The notes under the pieces were generated by a model. The model worked only from the letters and a program-made list of their open reading frames with translations. It was not told where the DNA came from and did not search any database. A stretch of 64,000 nucleotides of DNA from assembly GCA_017441945.1 (NCBI GenBank), contig JAFSBG010000080.1, forward strand, positions 1 through 64,000, written 5' to 3'. Positions 4,172-57,264 of this stretch are shown in pieces (position 1 is the first letter of the stretch; each line of letters begins with the position of its first letter). Both the position numbers and the translations under genes were made by a program. The stretch comes from Clostridia bacterium. Its GTDB lineage: Bacteria > Bacillota > Clostridia > Oscillospirales > Butyricicoccaceae.

Positions 4172-4382
4172 TAGATGGTCTTTTGACCATGAGTATCTAT
4201 ATTATAAGTAACCACTGAATAAATCAGAGAATGTTCAGCGGTGAGATATTTTTTCATCAGGCTGACTAAAAGCCGCAGGCAAGGCTTTGTGCCTTAACGA
4301 GGATTTTTGGGCAGAAATGATGGAAAAAGAGCCACCGATGAGCGTGCTATTGATTTAAGAAGGGGTTACAAACTAAAAGGCG
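4172..4382 (+). ncRNA. Structured RNA segment of unknown class upstream of the T-box
   Basis: This stretch has no reading frame but can fold. ATGGTC-tttt-GACCAT lies at 4174-4189. ACCaCTGAA (4211-4219) can pair with TTCAGcGGT (4234-4242). A 10-bp helix TTTTTTCATC (4249-4258) with GATGGAAAAA (4319-4328) would enclose a GGC/GCC hairpin near 4260-4273 and AAGGC-tttgt-GCCTT (4281-4295). It does not match a riboswitch consensus I know. It could be an independent small RNA, a 5' domain of the pheST leader, or chance pairing. Confidence 0.4.
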
Positions 4383-4619
4383 TTGAAAAAGAGAGTAGCA
4401 TAAAAGGCGTGAAGCAGAGAGGGATTGAATGGTGTGATTTTCCCCATGGCCGCTATGTGAAGTTCACTTTGGAGCCCTGTTTTTGAAGTAACAGTAGAGA
4501 ACAGCGTATCCCCTGCGTTAAAGGGTCTGAGTGTCCTGTATTTTTACAGGAAACCAGGGTGGTACCACGGAAACTATGTTTTTTTCGCCCCTGTCTTATG
4601 ACAGGGGCTTATTTTTTAT
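4383..4619 (+). promoter_or_regulatory. T-box riboswitch, tRNA-Phe responsive, controlling pheST
   Basis: Stem I begins at the conserved GAGAGTAGCA (4391-4400) and closes after the specifier region, where TTC at 4463-4465 (a Phe codon) sits in the usual context before ACTTTGGAGC. The hallmark T-box sequence AGGGTGGTACCACGG is at 4556-4570. The competing terminator is the 11-bp hairpin 4587-4608 followed by a T-rich tract. Known mechanism: uncharged tRNA-Phe pairs with the specifier and the T-box, stabilises the antiterminator and turns on the operon. The specifier agrees with the genes downstream. Confidence 0.95.
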
Positions 4620-21077: not shown

Positions 21078-22673
21078 TTATCTCATTCCCTCGATGGTGT
21101 CCCAGACATTCATACAGATATCTGCGCTGCCATTCGGTATTGCGCCGATACGCCAGATTGAAATATCTGTAACTCCGAACATCTTTGCCAGCTCGATTTT
21201 ATCGGCAATGCTTCGGGCATCTTCATACCACAATAAAATCTGCTGTCCGCTCTCCGTAGTATACCATGCATACGGATTGCGGTATGTGTCAGAGTAGATT
21301 ATCTCTGTATCAGCCTGCGAGAGGCGCTGTGCCACAGTTTCCATAGACGGGTGAATTACCCTGCCGTCTGTGATACGCTTGTTACGGGCGTTCCACGCGG
21401 CTGTATTTGTAGTGCTGAGGGCAAGAGTTATCTTTGATTCATCCACCTCAGTCGTTATCGCTTTAAGCGCCGTATAGACCTCACCGAAAGGCGTTACAGG
21501 TGTTGCGATAAAGTCGGTATTGAGAAGATTTGACGGCAGATTATTTGGGGCGTAATCGTGAGCCATAAGTATGATTTTATGGCAGATTTCACCTAATTTG
21601 CCGTAATCGTAGGCGCTGAAATAGTCGCCCTCCGACAGCACAGGATGAACTGCGATGTTGAGCTTTTTGCCACCCAGTGCATCCTTTAGTTCGGTCATAA
21701 ATGCGGTGAGGCCGTTTTTCAGCTCATCACCCTTCATGCCTTCAAAGTCTATCGTAACACCGTCAAACTCCTTGGCGGCAGAGACAATCTGCTTCACCGC
21801 GTCTTTGCGGTTGGCTTCGTCAAGAAGAATCGCCTGGCAATGGCTCTGGTCGGTCATTGTAACGGCAAGATTTATGGCGGTATTATTGTCACGCATAAGC
21901 GTGAGCGCGTCTTCATAGCCCTGTGGAAGCTTCCAGTCGTTGCCGTTTTTCGAGGTCTGGTTAAGGCTTACGCCGTTATCAAACTCAAGCCTTGCCCAGC
22001 CAAAGGAGACCTCGTCCATAGAGACGGCAATATCACGCTGATTCCATGAAGAAATGGCGTAAAAGCCGTGAATTTCGTCGATTTTTGCGTAATATTTGCG
22101 GTGTACGCGCATCATCATAGCCGCGCCCTGCTCTCTTGTTGCCGAGCCGTTTGGGTCAAACTTATCGCCCCCTGTGCCGTTGATTATGCCCAGATTGTAG
22201 GCGACGGAAATATAGCCCTTGTCAGCTGTCACATCGCTGAAAGGGTTTGTCTTTTCGCCCTTTGCAAGGTTATCGTATCCGAGAGCCTTGACAAGCATGA
22301 CAGCCATTTCACGGCGTGTTATGTAATCATCAGGGCGAAAGCTCCGAGAGTTTTCCACATCGTGTGCATAAAGGGTGTTGATATAGCCTGTAAACCATTG
22401 ATTCGGCTTGACATCATTGAAATTCGAGCTTTCGCCGCTTTCGACACCCCAGCCCATAAGGCGGGTCAGCATTGCGGCAAATTCACTTCGCATAATTTTA
22501 TCACCGTAGCCGAAAATGCCGTTGCCTCTGCCTTCCATAAGACCGACCGAATTGGCGGCGTTTATATCAGCAAGCGCCCAGCTGTTTTTCGGTACATCTG
22601 TAAAGCCTGCGCCCAGTGAGCACATCGGCAGACAGATGGCAAGGAGGAGAAATATTGATATGGTGCGTTTCAT
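21078..22673 (-). CDS. Secreted S-layer-homology protein with GH18 domain
   Basis: 531 residues. A signal peptide (about 1-22) is followed by three SLH repeats (about 24-80, 84-140 and 145-195: FTDVPKNSWALADI, FNDVKPNQWFTGYI, FSDVTADKGYISVA), which anchor proteins to cell-wall polymers. The C-terminal half (about 205-530) is a glycoside hydrolase family 18 barrel with the catalytic DGVTIDFE motif (304-311, acid Glu311). This arrangement resembles spore or cortex-type N-acetylglucosaminidases and wall hydrolases; the substrate is most likely peptidoglycan. AAAGGAG precedes the start. It stands alone, convergent with yitT. Confidence 0.92.
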   Translation of the reverse strand: MKRTISIFLLLAICLPMCSLGAGFTDVPKNSWALADINAANSVGLMEGRGNGIFGYGDKIMRSEFAAMLTRLMGWGVESGESSNFNDVKPNQWFTGYINTLYAHDVENSRSFRPDDYITRREMAVMLVKALGYDNLAKGEKTNPFSDVTADKGYISVAYNLGIINGTGGDKFDPNGSATREQGAAMMMRVHRKYYAKIDEIHGFYAISSWNQRDIAVSMDEVSFGWARLEFDNGVSLNQTSKNGNDWKLPQGYEDALTLMRDNNTAINLAVTMTDQSHCQAILLDEANRKDAVKQIVSAAKEFDGVTIDFEGMKGDELKNGLTAFMTELKDALGGKKLNIAVHPVLSEGDYFSAYDYGKLGEICHKIILMAHDYAPNNLPSNLLNTDFIATPVTPFGEVYTALKAITTEVDESKITLALSTTNTAAWNARNKRITDGRVIHPSMETVAQRLSQADTEIIYSDTYRNPYAWYTTESGQQILLWYEDARSIADKIELAKMFGVTDISIWRIGAIPNGSADICMNVWDTIEGMR

Positions 22674-22756
22674 TGAAGCTCCTTTCTTGTGAGTTGGGAG
22701 TTAAGGGTAGGTTGGTCAGGTTTTCGGGAGCAGCAAGCAGCCCATCTACAATTTAT

Positions 22757-22830
22757 ATGTCATTCTGAACGCAGTGAAGAATCTCCCACGGCTCGCAGAA
22801 TCCTGTAGGGCGGCGCCCCCGACGTCCCGC
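22757..22830. repeat. Composite intergenic repeat (TGTCATTCTGA + GTAGGG unit)
   Basis: TGTCATTCTGAACGCAGTGA, GAAGAATCTCCC, then a GCAGAATCC joint and GTAGGGCGG...GTCCCGC. The order and spacing match 8549-8628, and 11553-11648 on the other strand. Confidence 0.75.
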
Positions 22831-22872
22831 GTGGTAAAGTAATAAGTAATAGTGAAAAGTGAAAAAGTGTAG

Positions 22873-23018
22873 TGTGATAAATCACATTGAATAGGTTACA
22901 ACCCCTCCGACGGCTAACGCCGCCACCTCCCCTTGCACAGGGGAGGCTACAAGTTTTCTTGCCTCCCTCTGACGAGGGAGGGGGACCACGAAGTGGTGGA
23001 AGGAGAGAACTTATTTAA
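22873..23018. repeat. MITE-like element with inverted ends
   Basis: The palindrome TGTGATaaATCACA (22873-22886) is followed by TTGAATAGGTT (22887-22897), then hairpins in a CTCC/GAGG-rich body, ending GAACTTATTTAA (23007-23018), the reverse complement of TTAAATAAGTTC. It is about 130 bp with near-identical inverted ends and no reading frame. The body includes CCTCCCTCTGACGAGGGAGG and CCACgaaGTGG. Confidence 0.65.
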
Positions 23019-23021
23019 TTC

Positions 23022-23133
23022 GTGACGAAGTCACACCGCATCTGCGCAGCAGTATGTAATCACACGCAGTGTGTATGTAATCGCCTTGCGTATGGCATCA
23101 CCACAGGTGTATGTAATCTGTACCTGCAGTGCA
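23022..23133 (+). repeat. Hairpin-linker array with TATGTAAT linkers
   Basis: Order: GTGACgaaGTCAC (23022-23034), linker ACCGCAT, CTGCgcaGCAG (23042-23052), TATGTAAT, CACACgcaGTGTG (23061-23073), TATGTAAT, CGCcttGCG (23082-23090), TATGGCAT, CACCacaGGTG (23099-23109), TATGTAAT, CTGTACctgcaGTGCA (23118-23133). Palindromes differ in sequence while linkers are nearly constant at 8 nt. It joins a TTGGATAA-headed module at 23134. There is no coding potential. It belongs to the family described under 24388, 29303 and 57171. Confidence 0.75.
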
Positions 23134-23244
23134 TTGGATAAAATTCTCTCCCCCGTCAAAACCTGTGGTTTTGCCACCCCCCTCATCAGAGGGAGGCAAG
23201 GTCTTATGCGTAGGGGAGCTGCTTGCCTCTCCCGTATTATTCAA
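23134..23244. repeat. Short element between two hairpin-linker arrays
   Basis: It begins TTGGATAAAATTCTCTCC (23134), carries AAAACCtgtGGTTTT (23158-23172) and CCCCTCatcaGAGGGAGG, then a GTAGGGGAG...CTCTCCC unit (23210-23234), and ends ATTATTCAA (23236-23244), the complement of TTGAATAAT. The ends are inverted copies of each other. Confidence 0.6.
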
Positions 23245-23335
23245 TGCGCCGCAGGCACCATAATGTTGCACAGCAACAATTCATGCGTTTACGCAATTTA
23301 TGTACGCAGTACAATTCATGGCGCAGCCAATTTAT
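23245..23335 (-). repeat. Hairpin-linker array with ATGAATT/ATAAATT linkers
   Basis: Read on the minus strand from 23335: ATAAATT, GGCtgcGCC, ATGAATT, GTACtgcGTAC, ATAAATT, GCGTaaACGC, ATGAATT, GTTGCtgtGCAAC, ATTATGG, TGCCtgcGGCGCA, then TTGAATAAT. All linkers are exactly 7 nt. The array starts 3 bp after the stop codon of the P1-peptidase gene. Confidence 0.8.
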
Positions 23336-23338
23336 TTC

Positions 23339-24367
23339 CTACAAATCCATATATTCTGTCAGGGAGTGGGCAACTCTGCCGTTTCTGCCTGTGACAGTTT
23401 CGGCGTGAAGGAGAGAGCTGATAACAGCTTCCTCAACACCCTCTGTGACAGCTATAAACAGGCTGTTGATTTTGTCCTCATGGAGAGTTTTAGTCTCGAC
23501 AATCGCCTTTTCCTCGTAATGCTTGACCTTATTTGCAGTTGTGAAAGCATAGACAACATCGCCTGAGCCGTTGCCGTAATAGGAGCCTGTGCGGGCAAGA
23601 CCTGCAGGCACACGCTTGCAAAGGCGTTTAAGCTGACGCTCGTTGACAGGGATATCTGTTGCAAGAATAATTATAATCGAACCCTTGTCCTCCTCTGCCC
23701 ACTTGTCCTTGATTCGCTTGCCAAGCTTGTCGCCGTCGACGATAAGACGGTCTGTTGCGCCGAAATTGCTCATTACAAGAACACCAATTGTGTATTCTTC
23801 GCCGTCAAGCTCGACGATACGGGAGGCTGTACCGATGCCGCCCTTTAAGCCATAACACATCATGCCTGTGCCGCCTCCGACGTCACCTTCTTCAAAGTCC
23901 TCACTTGCATTTTTAAGGGCTTCAAAAACGTGCTCCTCCTTGATAAAAAGCTTGCGGATGCAGTTCAGGTTGCCGTCGTTGCACTCGCAGACGACAGGAT
24001 TTACTGTGCCTGTTGTGTCGCCGATATCCTCATTCTGCTCAAGCATATATTTAACGAGAGCTGTTGCCGCTGTGCCGACAGAAAGGGTATTTGTCAGCAC
24101 GATCGGGGTTTCAATAGTGCCAAGCTCGTCAATCTGGACTGTACCTATGCTCTTTCCAAAGCCGTTGATGACATAAGTTGCGGCAACCACCTTTTCTTTG
24201 AAAATATTGCCCTCATGAGGAAGAATTGCTGTAACGCCTGTGCGTGCATCCCCCTCTTTAAGGGTTACATGGCCGACCTTGACGCCCTTTACATCTGTGA
24301 TGGCGTTGCGTGCGCCCTTTTTCATAGTGCCGATGTTGATATTATATTTTGATGTATCAATACCCAT
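23339..24367 (-). CDS. P1 family (DmpA/S58-type) aminopeptidase-like protein
   Basis: 342 residues, typical of the self-processing S58 family. The N-terminus GARNAITDVKGVKVGHVTL is the family signature. The autocleavage site is Gly229-Ser230 in EEDKGSIIIILATDIP; Ser230 would become the nucleophile of the mature beta chain. Other conserved pieces are VGGGTGMMCYGLKGGIGTA and SNFGATDRL. Family members release N-terminal residues or cleave beta-peptides; the substrate here is not predictable. An AGGAG-type site precedes the start at 24367. It is flanked on both sides by hairpin-linker arrays. Confidence 0.92.
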   Translation of the reverse strand: MGIDTSKYNINIGTMKKGARNAITDVKGVKVGHVTLKEGDARTGVTAILPHEGNIFKEKVVAATYVINGFGKSIGTVQIDELGTIETPIVLTNTLSVGTAATALVKYMLEQNEDIGDTTGTVNPVVCECNDGNLNCIRKLFIKEEHVFEALKNASEDFEEGDVGGGTGMMCYGLKGGIGTASRIVELDGEEYTIGVLVMSNFGATDRLIVDGDKLGKRIKDKWAEEDKGSIIIILATDIPVNERQLKRLCKRVPAGLARTGSYYGNGSGDVVYAFTTANKVKHYEEKAIVETKTLHEDKINSLFIAVTEGVEEAVISSLLHAETVTGRNGRVAHSLTEYMDL

Positions 24368-24387
24368 TGTTGTTCTCCTTTATATGA

Positions 24388-24480
24388 ATGAATAGTGTAA
24401 ACACATGGATTATCTTGCGATATGAATTGCACTTTGTGCATGAATTGTTGCAAAGCAACATTGCGGTGTGATAAATCACA
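24388..24480 (+). repeat. Hairpin-linker array with ATGAATT linkers
   Basis: Order: linker ATGAATA, GTGTaaACAC (24395-24404), ATGGATT, ATCttgcGAT (24412-24421), ATGAATT, GCACtttGTGC (24429-24439), ATGAATT, GTTGCaaaGCAAC (24447-24459), ATTGCGG, TGTGATaaATCACA (24467-24480). Every linker is 7 nt and every unit a different palindrome. It begins about 20 bp upstream of the P1-peptidase start codon, so it may be part of that gene's 5' region. Confidence 0.82.
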
Positions 24481-24812
24481 TTGGATTGATTTCGCTCCCT
24501 CCGTCACTTCGTGACACCTCCCTCGACCCGAAGGAGGCAAAAAAGCTGTTAAGCCTCCCATTGTTAAGGGGAGGGGGCGCCGTAAACGGCACTAGCTCCG
24601 CGTCGCCACGAATGGTGGTGGAGGGGTGTAGGGCGTAGCCCGTCTGTTTAATCAAATGCATTGGATAAGTTTTATCTCTCCGTCACATTACACCCCAAAC
24701 AGCAGGCTGTTCGGGGACCCCACAAAATTAAATAGGTGCGGCGGCACTCGCCGCCAGTCGCGCACTTGCGCTCCGTGTGCCACCTCTCCTGAAATAGGAG
24801 AGGCGAGGGGAT
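24481..24812. repeat. CTCCCTC hairpin elements between the P1-peptidase and pucR-like genes
   Basis: No gene. A first element runs from TTGGATTGATTTC (24481) to TTTAATCAA (24647-24655) and includes GTCACttcGTGAC and CCTCC/GGAGG hairpins. After ATGCA a second begins TTGGATAAG (24661) and runs to the stop of the regulator gene; it contains CCCCaAACAG-cagg-CTGTTcGGGG with ACCC following, a form also seen at 11330-11358, and a CTCTCC-tgaaata-GGAGAG hairpin at its end. Confidence 0.65.
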
Positions 24813-28007: not shown

Positions 28008-29300
28008 ATGAAGAACTTCGAAATCGTAAATTACGCTCTTGATTCCCTTAAAAATAAAGGCGCCCAGAAGGCTCAGTGCATCGGCACATTCTCAACAACT
28101 TGGGAGCTTACAGCTCTTTCCGGCAATATCGAGCTTCTGAGAACAATAAATGACGAAACCTCCATCGATATGAAGGGCTACTTCGATAATAAGATGGGCG
28201 GTATCTCCATCAGCACATCGGATCTTTCGGTCATTGACGAGGCTGCACAGAGCTGTCTTGACAACTCCAAGGGTGCTAAAGCAGATGAAACTCCTGCAAT
28301 GAACGAAGAAGCTGTTGTCAAGGTATTCGGCACTCCTGCCAAGGAGCCTGACCTTGAAAAGCTCATCTTCCGCACAAATGAATTCCTCGATAAGGCTCGC
28401 GAAATGTATCCTAATGTGCTCATTCGCCAGATGATCGTGCTTTATACAGTTGAAGAAAGCATTTACAAGAACACATTCGGCGTTGACATCACAGAATACG
28501 AAGATGTTTACTCTGTAAACATCATGTTCTCCGGCTTTGATGGCGACCTTAACTCCTCTTTCAACACTTATGCATTCGCCCTCAAGGACCTTGAAACTCC
28601 AATTATGGACGTTGCTCTCGTTTCCAAGCGCCTCGCCGAAGCTGAAAAGATGGTACACACTCACAAGTATCCTGAAAAGGTTGTGGGTGCAATGATTGTC
28701 ACACCACACTGCCTCAAGGACTTCCTCGGTCAGCTTATGAATGCTTATGCTTCTCCTAACGCTCTCGTTGGCGGCGGCAGCAAGTGGCAGAATGCTTTGG
28801 ACACAAAGGTAGCCTGCGATAATTTCAGCCTTTACAGCAAGCCACTTGATGAAAATATGGCTTATAACAACCATTACACATCTGACGGCTTTATCGCAGA
28901 AAATCAGGCTATCATCGAAAACGGCGTGCTCAAGGGTATGTTTGCCGACCATTACACAGCAGCAAAGACAGGTCTTCCACGCAGAAAGTCGGGCGGACGC
29001 TTCTTTGTAATTCCAAAGGGCGACAAAACTCTGGACGAAATGATCGCATCTGTCGAAGACGGCATCATCATCAACCGCTTCTCGGGCGGTCACGCAGGTG
29101 CATCGGGCGACCTTTCGGGTATTTCCAAGAACAGCTTCTACATCAAGAACGGCAAGCTGGACGAGGCTGCAAGAGAAACTATGATTTCTGTCAACCTTTC
29201 CGACCTGCTTATGAACATTGATGCAATTTCTGTTGAAACTGTAAACGATGGTTCTTCCGATCTGCCATACATCGCAGTAAAGAACGTGACTATTCTTTAG
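28008..29300 (+). CDS. TldE/PmbA-like metalloprotease partner subunit
   Basis: 430 residues, no HExxxH motif, as expected for the non-catalytic TldE partner. Conserved parts include SSFNTYAFALKDLETPIMDV, the GGGSKWQNALD region and the C-terminal FSGGHAGASGDLSGISKNSF typical of the family. AGGAGG lies at the end of the tldD-like gene. No terminator follows; a hairpin-linker array begins 2 bp after the stop codon, which could serve as the mRNA 3' end. Confidence 0.92.
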   Translation: MKNFEIVNYALDSLKNKGAQKAQCIGTFSTTWELTALSGNIELLRTINDETSIDMKGYFDNKMGGISISTSDLSVIDEAAQSCLDNSKGAKADETPAMNEEAVVKVFGTPAKEPDLEKLIFRTNEFLDKAREMYPNVLIRQMIVLYTVEESIYKNTFGVDITEYEDVYSVNIMFSGFDGDLNSSFNTYAFALKDLETPIMDVALVSKRLAEAEKMVHTHKYPEKVVGAMIVTPHCLKDFLGQLMNAYASPNALVGGGSKWQNALDTKVACDNFSLYSKPLDENMAYNNHYTSDGFIAENQAIIENGVLKGMFADHYTAAKTGLPRRKSGGRFFVIPKGDKTLDEMIASVEDGIIINRFSGGHAGASGDLSGISKNSFYIKNGKLDEAARETMISVNLSDLLMNIDAISVETVNDGSSDLPYIAVKNVTIL

Positions 29301-29302
29301 TT

Positions 29303-29416
29303 GCACTATCGTGCGCGATATGTGCTTACGCACACGATATATTTGCTTTGCAAATTCGATATTCGGCACAGCCGAGCGATATGTTCCTGCGGAACGTTAA
29401 TGTGTGACAAGTCACA
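29303..29416 (+). repeat. Hairpin-linker array with NCGATAT linkers
   Basis: Order: GCACtatcGTGC (29303-29314), GCGATAT, GTGCttacGCAC (29322-29333), ACGATAT, ATTTGCtttGCAAAT (29341-29355), TCGATAT, TCGGCacaGCCGA (29363-29375), GCGATAT, GTTCCtgcGGAAC (29383-29395), GTTAATG, TGTGACaaGTCACA (29403-29416). Five linkers of exactly 7 nt and six unrelated perfect palindromes. Arm lengths vary from 4 to 6 bp, loops from 2 to 4 nt. Confidence 0.88.
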
Positions 29417-51564: not shown

Positions 51565-51900
51565 GGTATTCCTCCATAATGTTTTTCGTTGTTTTTTATT
51601 TATTGCGACACCATACATGGCGGAAAATCTGCAACGCTTCCGTGTGTATCACGGTCTGGGCATAAATCAAGCCGCATAATATCATACTGATACTGTCGGC
51701 TTTCACAAATTACGCAGGTTGGTCTCTTGTTCAGTTATGTGGCTTAAGGACATAGTCATCAGTTCCACAAGGTTTTTATAAGGTACTCTTTGCGTTCAAT
51801 TTTCCAGCCGCCCGATTGTCGGACCTACTCCGTCGAAGTTACCTGCTTTAAGCAGCAATCTCCGACTTCATCGCATTTTTCTTGCGCCTTTCTTTAGCGC
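51565..51900 (-). promoter_or_regulatory. Long structured leader of the S10 superoperon
   Basis: About 335 nt between the promoter and rpsJ. Visible hairpins: CTGCTTTAAGCAG (51843-51855) and an AAGCCG...CGGCTT stem with inner TATCA/TGATA pairing (51669-51702). No T-box or known riboswitch motif. In E. coli L4 controls this operon through its leader; here the class of leader is not identified, so autoregulation is inferred only from length and position. Confidence 0.5.
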
Positions 51901-57170: not shown

Positions 57171-57264
57171 ATGAATTGACTTCGTCATGAATTGGCAAAG
57201 CCATGAATTGCATAAATGCATGAATTGTTTGCCGTCAGCAAACATTATGGTGTGACACGTCACA
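57171..57264 (+). repeat. Hairpin-linker array with ATGAATT linkers
   Basis: Order: ATGAATT, GACttcGTC (57178-57186), ATGAATT, GGCaaaGCC (57194-57202), ATGAATT, GCATaaATGC (57210-57219), ATGAATT, GTTTGCcgtcaGCAAAC (57227-57243), ATTATGG, TGTGACacGTCACA (57251-57264). Four identical 7-nt linkers and five different palindromes. It starts 25 bp upstream of the minD start codon and runs away from the gene. Confidence 0.88.

Follow-up and report, generated by a model that had tools for sequence, protein, structure and literature searches.

A hairpin-linker array between two bacterial genes

The window, the whole 64,000-nucleotide stretch that was analysed, comes from a genome of 2.26 Mb in 184 contigs and carries a hairpin-linker array at positions 23042-23117, in a short intergenic stretch between two bacterial genes. 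Read from its sequence, the array consists of unrelated stems joined by three copies of TATGTAAT and one of TATGGCAT. An earlier note had described an array with an 8-nt linker and one variant lying between two inverted modules, and both points hold: the variant precedes the fourth hairpin, and the modules are of TTRAATAA type, with TTATTTAAT on the left and TTGGATAA on the right. The sequence TATGTAATC occurs three times within 66 bases at the array, against 0.39 occurrences expected in the whole 64 kb window. The array, its borders and the other arrays in the window are as follows.

23011-23019, + strand: left boundary module TTATTTAAT, read directly; conserved at the left edge of dispersed copies
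23022-23037, + strand: end hairpin GTGACgaaGTCAC and conserved ACC; among copies the hairpin sequence varies and ACC is constant
23042-23052, + strand: hairpin 1, CTGCgcaGCAG; CTGCgaaGCAG in the sister species G340
23053-23060, + strand: linker 1, TATGTAAT, read directly
23061-23073, + strand: hairpin 2, CACACgcaGTGTG; other copies have CACCgcaGGTG, CACCgaaGGTG, CGCCgaaGGCG and CACACaaaGTGTG
23074-23081, + strand: linker 2, TATGTAAT, read directly
23082-23090, + strand: hairpin 3, CGCcttGCG; TGCataGCG in G340 (T.G wobble)
23091-23098, + strand: linker 3, TATGGCAT, a position-specific variant; TATGTCAT or TATGGCAT in other bacterial families
23099-23109, + strand: hairpin 4, CACCacaGGTG, read directly
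23110-23117, + strand: linker 4, TATGTAAT, read directly
23118-23141, + strand: right end CTGTACctgcaGTGCATTGGATAA, which mirrors the left boundary in inverted orientation
23134-23141: outer right motif TTGGATAA, inverted, read directly
23039-23113, + strand: match to covariance model R1 (52.0 bits, E 5.8e-8), a model built only from other bacterial families
23256-23346, + strand: neighbouring family III array, linker AATTCAT/AATTTAT; no array at the same place in G340
24395-24480, − strand: family III array with linker AATTCAT that lies upstream of the gene at 23339-24367 and persists in G340
29298-29416, − strand: family II array, linker ATATCGC; retained in G340
57171-57264, − strand: family III array, linker AATTCAT

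Between the arrays lie modules of the form CTCCGTC-hairpin-CCACCTCCC...GGGAGGCAAG (22903-23009, 23143-23200 and 24491-24660), bounded by TTGAATAA/TTATTCAA; in G340 the loop of one such module has taken up a 38-nt hairpin insertion. Elsewhere in the window, an Rfam search identified a T-box leader (4374-4595, + strand) and an S10-Clostridia ribosomal protein leader (51816-51879, − strand).

Linkers, not stems, are shared within arrays

Two copies of TATGTAAT separated by 6 to 20 nucleotides were found at 17 places in the source genome, compared to one place for the reversed pattern. A de novo search of the same genome for hairpins with recurrent short linkers yielded two additional families, with linkers ATATCGC (II) and AATTCAT (III), and a family with the Gut-1-like linker GTGAAAT is present as well. 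In 474 kb of this genome we counted 220 hairpin chains versus 61 in shuffled DNA. There, 19.6% of linker pairs within an array shared at least 5 nt, compared to 2.8% of pairs between arrays, while stem pairs sharing at least 4 nt were about as frequent within arrays (2.4%) as between them (3.0%), bearing out the view that palindromes within one array are unlike each other. The companion view, that each array has its own linker, is confirmed by the presence of a single linker class in 61 of the 63 arrays with a classifiable linker, the two exceptions being classification artefacts; free mixing of linkers within arrays, which the earlier note had named as the observation that would count against it, is not what these 61 chains display.

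Linker type follows element family, with several families sharing one genome. Family II (ATATCGC) is nearly limited to one genus, and the TATGNNAT family occurs in many bacterial families of the order. A set of near-identical TGTAATcagATTACA palindromes with linker TACGTTG in a Prevotella MAG (L191, 5046-5130) is an unrelated ordinary tandem repeat.

One among many copies of a dispersed element

Comparison of about 17 copies revealed that most TATGTAAT arrays of the source genome are copies of one element of fixed order, running from TTATTTAAT through a hairpin, ACC, hairpin 1, TATGTAAT, hairpin 2, TATGTAAT and hairpin 3 to TATGGCAT, hairpin 4, TATGTAAT, GGT, a further hairpin and ATTGAATAA. 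Stems at each position differ between copies, yet they pair. The same linker pair joins very different, perfectly palindromic stems in other bacterial families of the order. In a named genome collection, TATGTAAT linker pairs were found mainly in uncultured Clostridia and Oscillospiraceae of ruminant guts, with a few chance matches elsewhere, and 87 of the 113 spacers between them were perfect palindromes whose stems had 4 bp or more (versus 8% in shuffled sequence).

Forty-eight elements of other bacterial families have a hairpin 0 (CCAATCCgaaGGATTGG) in common and repeat one linker order at the same positions: TATGTAAT, TATGTAAT, TATG(T/G)CAT. Linker 1 is TATGTAAT in 46/48 and linker 2 is TATGTAAT in 41/47, and linker 3 is TATGTCAT or TATGGCAT, i.e. 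TATGKCAT. Loop length is likewise tied to position in these elements, with four bases in hairpin 1 (32/47) and three in hairpin 2 (37/42), and hairpins 1 and 2 are each represented by 15-16 different stems. These stems are nonetheless paired almost throughout (452 Watson-Crick pairs, 6 G.T and 1 A.C among 466), and across 33 aligned elements 99% of cells were paired and 82 changes were compensatory, altering both sides of a pair, compared to 25 in shuffles; this covariation signal was lost when the pairing partner was slid along.

The covariance model R1, built from these 33 aligned elements, none of them from the source genome, recovered 18 copies in the source genome and matched 43 of 245 genomes of the order, indicating that elements across the order are homologous. 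It found no match in the other listed members of the source genome's bacterial family, and among 299 sampled genomes of the phylum the source genome was the sole match. The array in the window is thus one copy of a dispersed element present at least 18 times in its genome.

Linkers are near-frozen between sister species

G340, a sister species, keeps the window array with identical linkers and with changes in the loops and one stem base. The neighbouring AATTCAT array (23256-23346) is absent from G340, and other orthologous loci hold an ATATCGC array in one species and an AATTCAT array in the other, a rapid gain and loss of arrays between close relatives. At one orthologous locus a single hairpin has been replaced while the linkers around it are unchanged. 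Over 15 orthologous arrays, changes affected 1 of 263 linker positions (0.38%) and 2 of 170 stem positions (1.2%), compared to 4 of 66 loop positions (6.1%) and 206 of 3656 flanking positions (5.6%); because an array had to have intact linkers in one species to be recognised, the linker rate is biased downward by up to about two-fold, and the contrast remains. At orthologous loci, which differ by several nested repeats at once and where neighbouring repeats turn over as well, the comparison revealed neither a clean empty site nor a target duplication.

The proposal that linkers are homogenised within an array is therefore upheld in its descriptive half, as linkers do match within arrays, and not in its mechanism, since neither their positional order nor the near-frozen orthologues support local homogenisation. 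Recurring by position and scarcely changing between sister species, the linkers look like inherited, constrained parts of a fixed element.

Two inverted arms behind terminators and tRNA genes

Outside the source genus, the intact element has two inverted arms. A terminator-like hairpin precedes hairpin 0 in 44 of 54 intact elements, compared to 5.5% of random positions, and most often ends 2 nt before it; these terminators are bidirectional. In 29 of the 54 (54%), representing ten tRNA types, a tRNA gene ends at most 60 nt upstream. Similar terminator stems reappear at different tRNA genes, and the terminator may therefore be part of the element. In 54 of 55 elements, the first arm and loop of hairpin 0 have a complementary segment about 82-102 nt further downstream, and CCAAGCC variants of hairpin 0 are matched by CTTG variants in this mid-segment; such pairing would close hairpins 1-3 into a cloverleaf. 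Pairing between the linkers of the two arms was also considered and rejected, as first-arm and second-arm linker variants are unmatched.

On contig C117, a unit of tRNA-Gln, terminator and two-armed TATGTAAT array is tandemly duplicated with a spacing of 505 nt (locus L054, positions 4448 and 4953). Two loci of another genome (L075 and L077 of G010) share the two-armed architecture with the linker GTGATAT/ATATCAC.

The same architecture at Gut-1 loci

Gut-1 (RF01706) is an orphan Rfam family that was listed as a non-coding RNA from the human gut only (Weinberg et al. 2010, PMC2864571). In window positions 22600-24800 the Gut-1 model found no match even at E 5, and an Rfam search with the window array itself likewise returned none. 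Among the stretches scanned, other arrays of the source genome scored 26.8-49.6 bits against Gut-1, below the 50-bit Rfam gathering cut-off. Across the order, the model matched 105 of 245 genomes, often with at least 15 copies, and Gut-1 co-occurs with the TATGTAAT element in 41 of the 43 genomes that carry the latter (p = 1e-15). Eight of the best Gut-1 loci (L308-L315) display a tRNA gene, a terminator, a hairpin 0 and GTGAAAT-linked hairpins, followed, where the sequence reaches, by a segment at mid-element that complements hairpin 0 and by a second arm in inverted orientation. Gut-1 is thus not limited to the human gut: it is a high-copy repeat behind tRNA terminators, and its frequent position at contig ends is typical of repeats that break assemblies.

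Loops and strand polarity

Loops had been described as often gca, aca or tgc. Their identity depends on the strand that is read, and on the linker strand they are mostly G-N-A instead. C(GNA)G or C(GNNA)G loops are found in 100 of 241 distinct hairpins on the linker strand versus 4 on the opposite strand; GNNA loops show no preference for a purine as third base, i.e. there is no GNRA bias. In DNA, C(GNA)G and C(GNNA)G loops are unusually stable, while the loops favoured by RNA are GNRA and UUCG. Among the adjoining terminators, whose hairpins work at the RNA level, UUCG and GAAA loops occur and GNA triloops are absent. G.T mismatches exceed A.C mismatches on the linker strand (30 versus 13, p = 0.014), which points to the linker strand as the folding strand. 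For families II and III, the median distance from array end to gene edge is 21-32 nt, whatever the gene direction, and in the arm nearest the tRNA the GNA loops lie on the tRNA sense strand in the TATGTAAT family and on the antisense strand in Gut-1. The distinction between DNA and RNA depends on this bias and orientation because GNA loops are tolerated in RNA too; taken together, the loop and orientation data appear to favour folded DNA over RNA.

Weighing the explanations

The main rival, which we consider unlikely, is a structured non-coding RNA, as Weinberg et al. (PMC2864571) proposed for Gut-1: the arrays would be transcribed as sRNA or UTR structures whose linkers and loops bind protein or RNA. 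Covarying stems with conserved single-stranded linkers, the architecture shared with Rfam's Gut-1 and the excess of G.T wobbles over A.C on one strand all speak for it. However, the intact element starts behind a terminator, and with its arms inverted any transcript would hold one arm in each polarity. An RNA would also have to accommodate tRNA-proximal GNA loops that are sense in the TATGTAAT family and antisense in Gut-1, indifference of orientation to genes, and loops without GNRA or UUCG bias.

More improbable still is a backup terminator or insulator, in which hairpin clusters behind highly transcribed units would stop read-through or antisense transcription and would have spread as useful cassettes. 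The position 2 nt behind bidirectional terminators, the tRNA genes upstream and the similar terminator stems at different tRNA genes would suit such a role, but the array hairpins lack T-runs, many of their stems measure just 3-5 bp, and numerous arrays of the source genus are found upstream of gene starts, oriented like the gene; conserved linkers and position-specific loops would be left unexplained. We disfavour, as very improbable, a neutral product of replication in which tandem linker duplication and template-switch repair keep palindromes perfect with no selected function. Palindrome correction could indeed keep stems paired, and one source-genome array (L046, at 7414) has three tandem copies of the same hairpin, yet linkers and stems evolve far more slowly than flanks, linker variants and loop lengths keep to their positions across bacterial families, and homologous elements occur across the order.

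The explanation that we place above these, with confidence that is about even, is a folded-DNA, REP/MITE-like element, dispersed, non-coding, strand-polar, multi-hairpin and native to this order of Clostridia. We infer that its active form is folded DNA, extruded or single-stranded, and not RNA, that a protein reads the linkers and loops, and that the element has spread as a non-autonomous mobile element through a putative enzyme. On this model the conserved parts would be the single-stranded linkers and the loop types, while stems would serve as generic rods of any sequence provided that pairing holds. The intact form has its two inverted arms immediately after a bidirectional terminator, which often belongs to a tRNA gene, and base-pairing of the mid-element segment with the first hairpin can fold three hairpins into the cloverleaf. 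In the source genus one arm would have become a boundary-tagged element of about 130 bp (TTATTTAAT...ATTGAATAA), spread among REP-like repeats. Against this model, the near-frozen linkers suggest a host function for which pure parasitism would not account. A broader version, possible but held with distinctly less than even confidence, is an order-wide class of DNA elements in which the linker and loop code is inherited and stems are free, a folded structure (cloverleaf or cruciform) is read where tRNA and other transcription units end, the Gut-1 'RNA' is a misread member, and each linker type is a separate recognition specificity.

These results link an orphan Rfam family to a large set of intergenic hairpin arrays of uncultured gut Clostridia and give the arrays one shared anatomy, whose conserved parts are linker, loop and position. 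They caution that covariation alone is no proof of RNA, and they raise two testable questions: whether 'RNAs' called by covariation alone may turn out to be DNA elements, and what recognises an array of DNA hairpins when its stems are uninformative in sequence.

Comparison with known systems

A literature search returned nothing related beyond the Gut-1 and REP papers. The array resembles the GTAG- and CGTC-tagged repeats of the REP/BIME kind (Di Nocera et al. 2013, PMC3733652) in being a short, multi-copy, intergenic palindrome that occurs in clusters, with strand polarity and a gene-edge location, and such tagged repeats adjoin the arrays. Unlike them, it has no GTAG or CGTC tag (its linkers are TATGTAAT/TATGGCAT), its stem sequence is unconserved, it strings many hairpins on a constant linker, and a Y1/RAYT transposase is not required. 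Y1/RAYT was rejected as the mover, being present in the source genome and absent from three array-bearing genomes (G059, G089 and G154), two of which are 98-99% complete. The source genome has four Y1_Tnp (RAYT-like) genes (L060 1462-1962, − strand; L061 1264-1779, + strand; L062 about 1337-1842, + strand; L063 1231-1797, + strand). All four ORFs contain GTAG/CTAC-type palindromes at two similar positions, for example GTAGGGGAGGG...CCCTCCC and GGCGGGC...GCCCGCCCCTAC, and this palindromic repeat is also scattered between genes.

Like MITEs (RUP, NEMIS, ERIC and similar), copies of about 130 bp are dispersed and gained or lost between species, and copies in the source genome have terminal inverted repeats, TTATTTAAT/ATTGAATAA, which are short and imperfect; unlike in MITEs, what is conserved internally is a program of linkers and loops, not a sequence. 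An autonomous element with a gene between arrays was rejected, with no recognisable transposase in L140 or L180 (translations judged by eye), as was viral spread, the linker pattern occurring in only 11 stretches of 2.9 million viral contigs. A CRISPR array was rejected too: CRISPR arrays have identical repeats of 24-48 bp and unique non-palindromic spacers, whereas here only 7-8 nt are constant and the spacers form perfect palindromes. Integron attC sites are DNA hairpins that are conserved in structure, variable in sequence and strand-specific, a likeness in principle only.

The closest counterpart is Gut-1, which likewise has three hairpins in a row on a constant linker (GUGAAAU in Gut-1), covarying stems, strand-biased loops, and two inverted arms behind a tRNA terminator with a mid-segment complementary to the first hairpin; the window element differs in having another linker and loop program. 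We propose that the window array and Rfam's Gut-1 are of one kind, known yet unexplained, and that the same design accounts for Gut-1 at tRNA gene ends in gut Clostridia.
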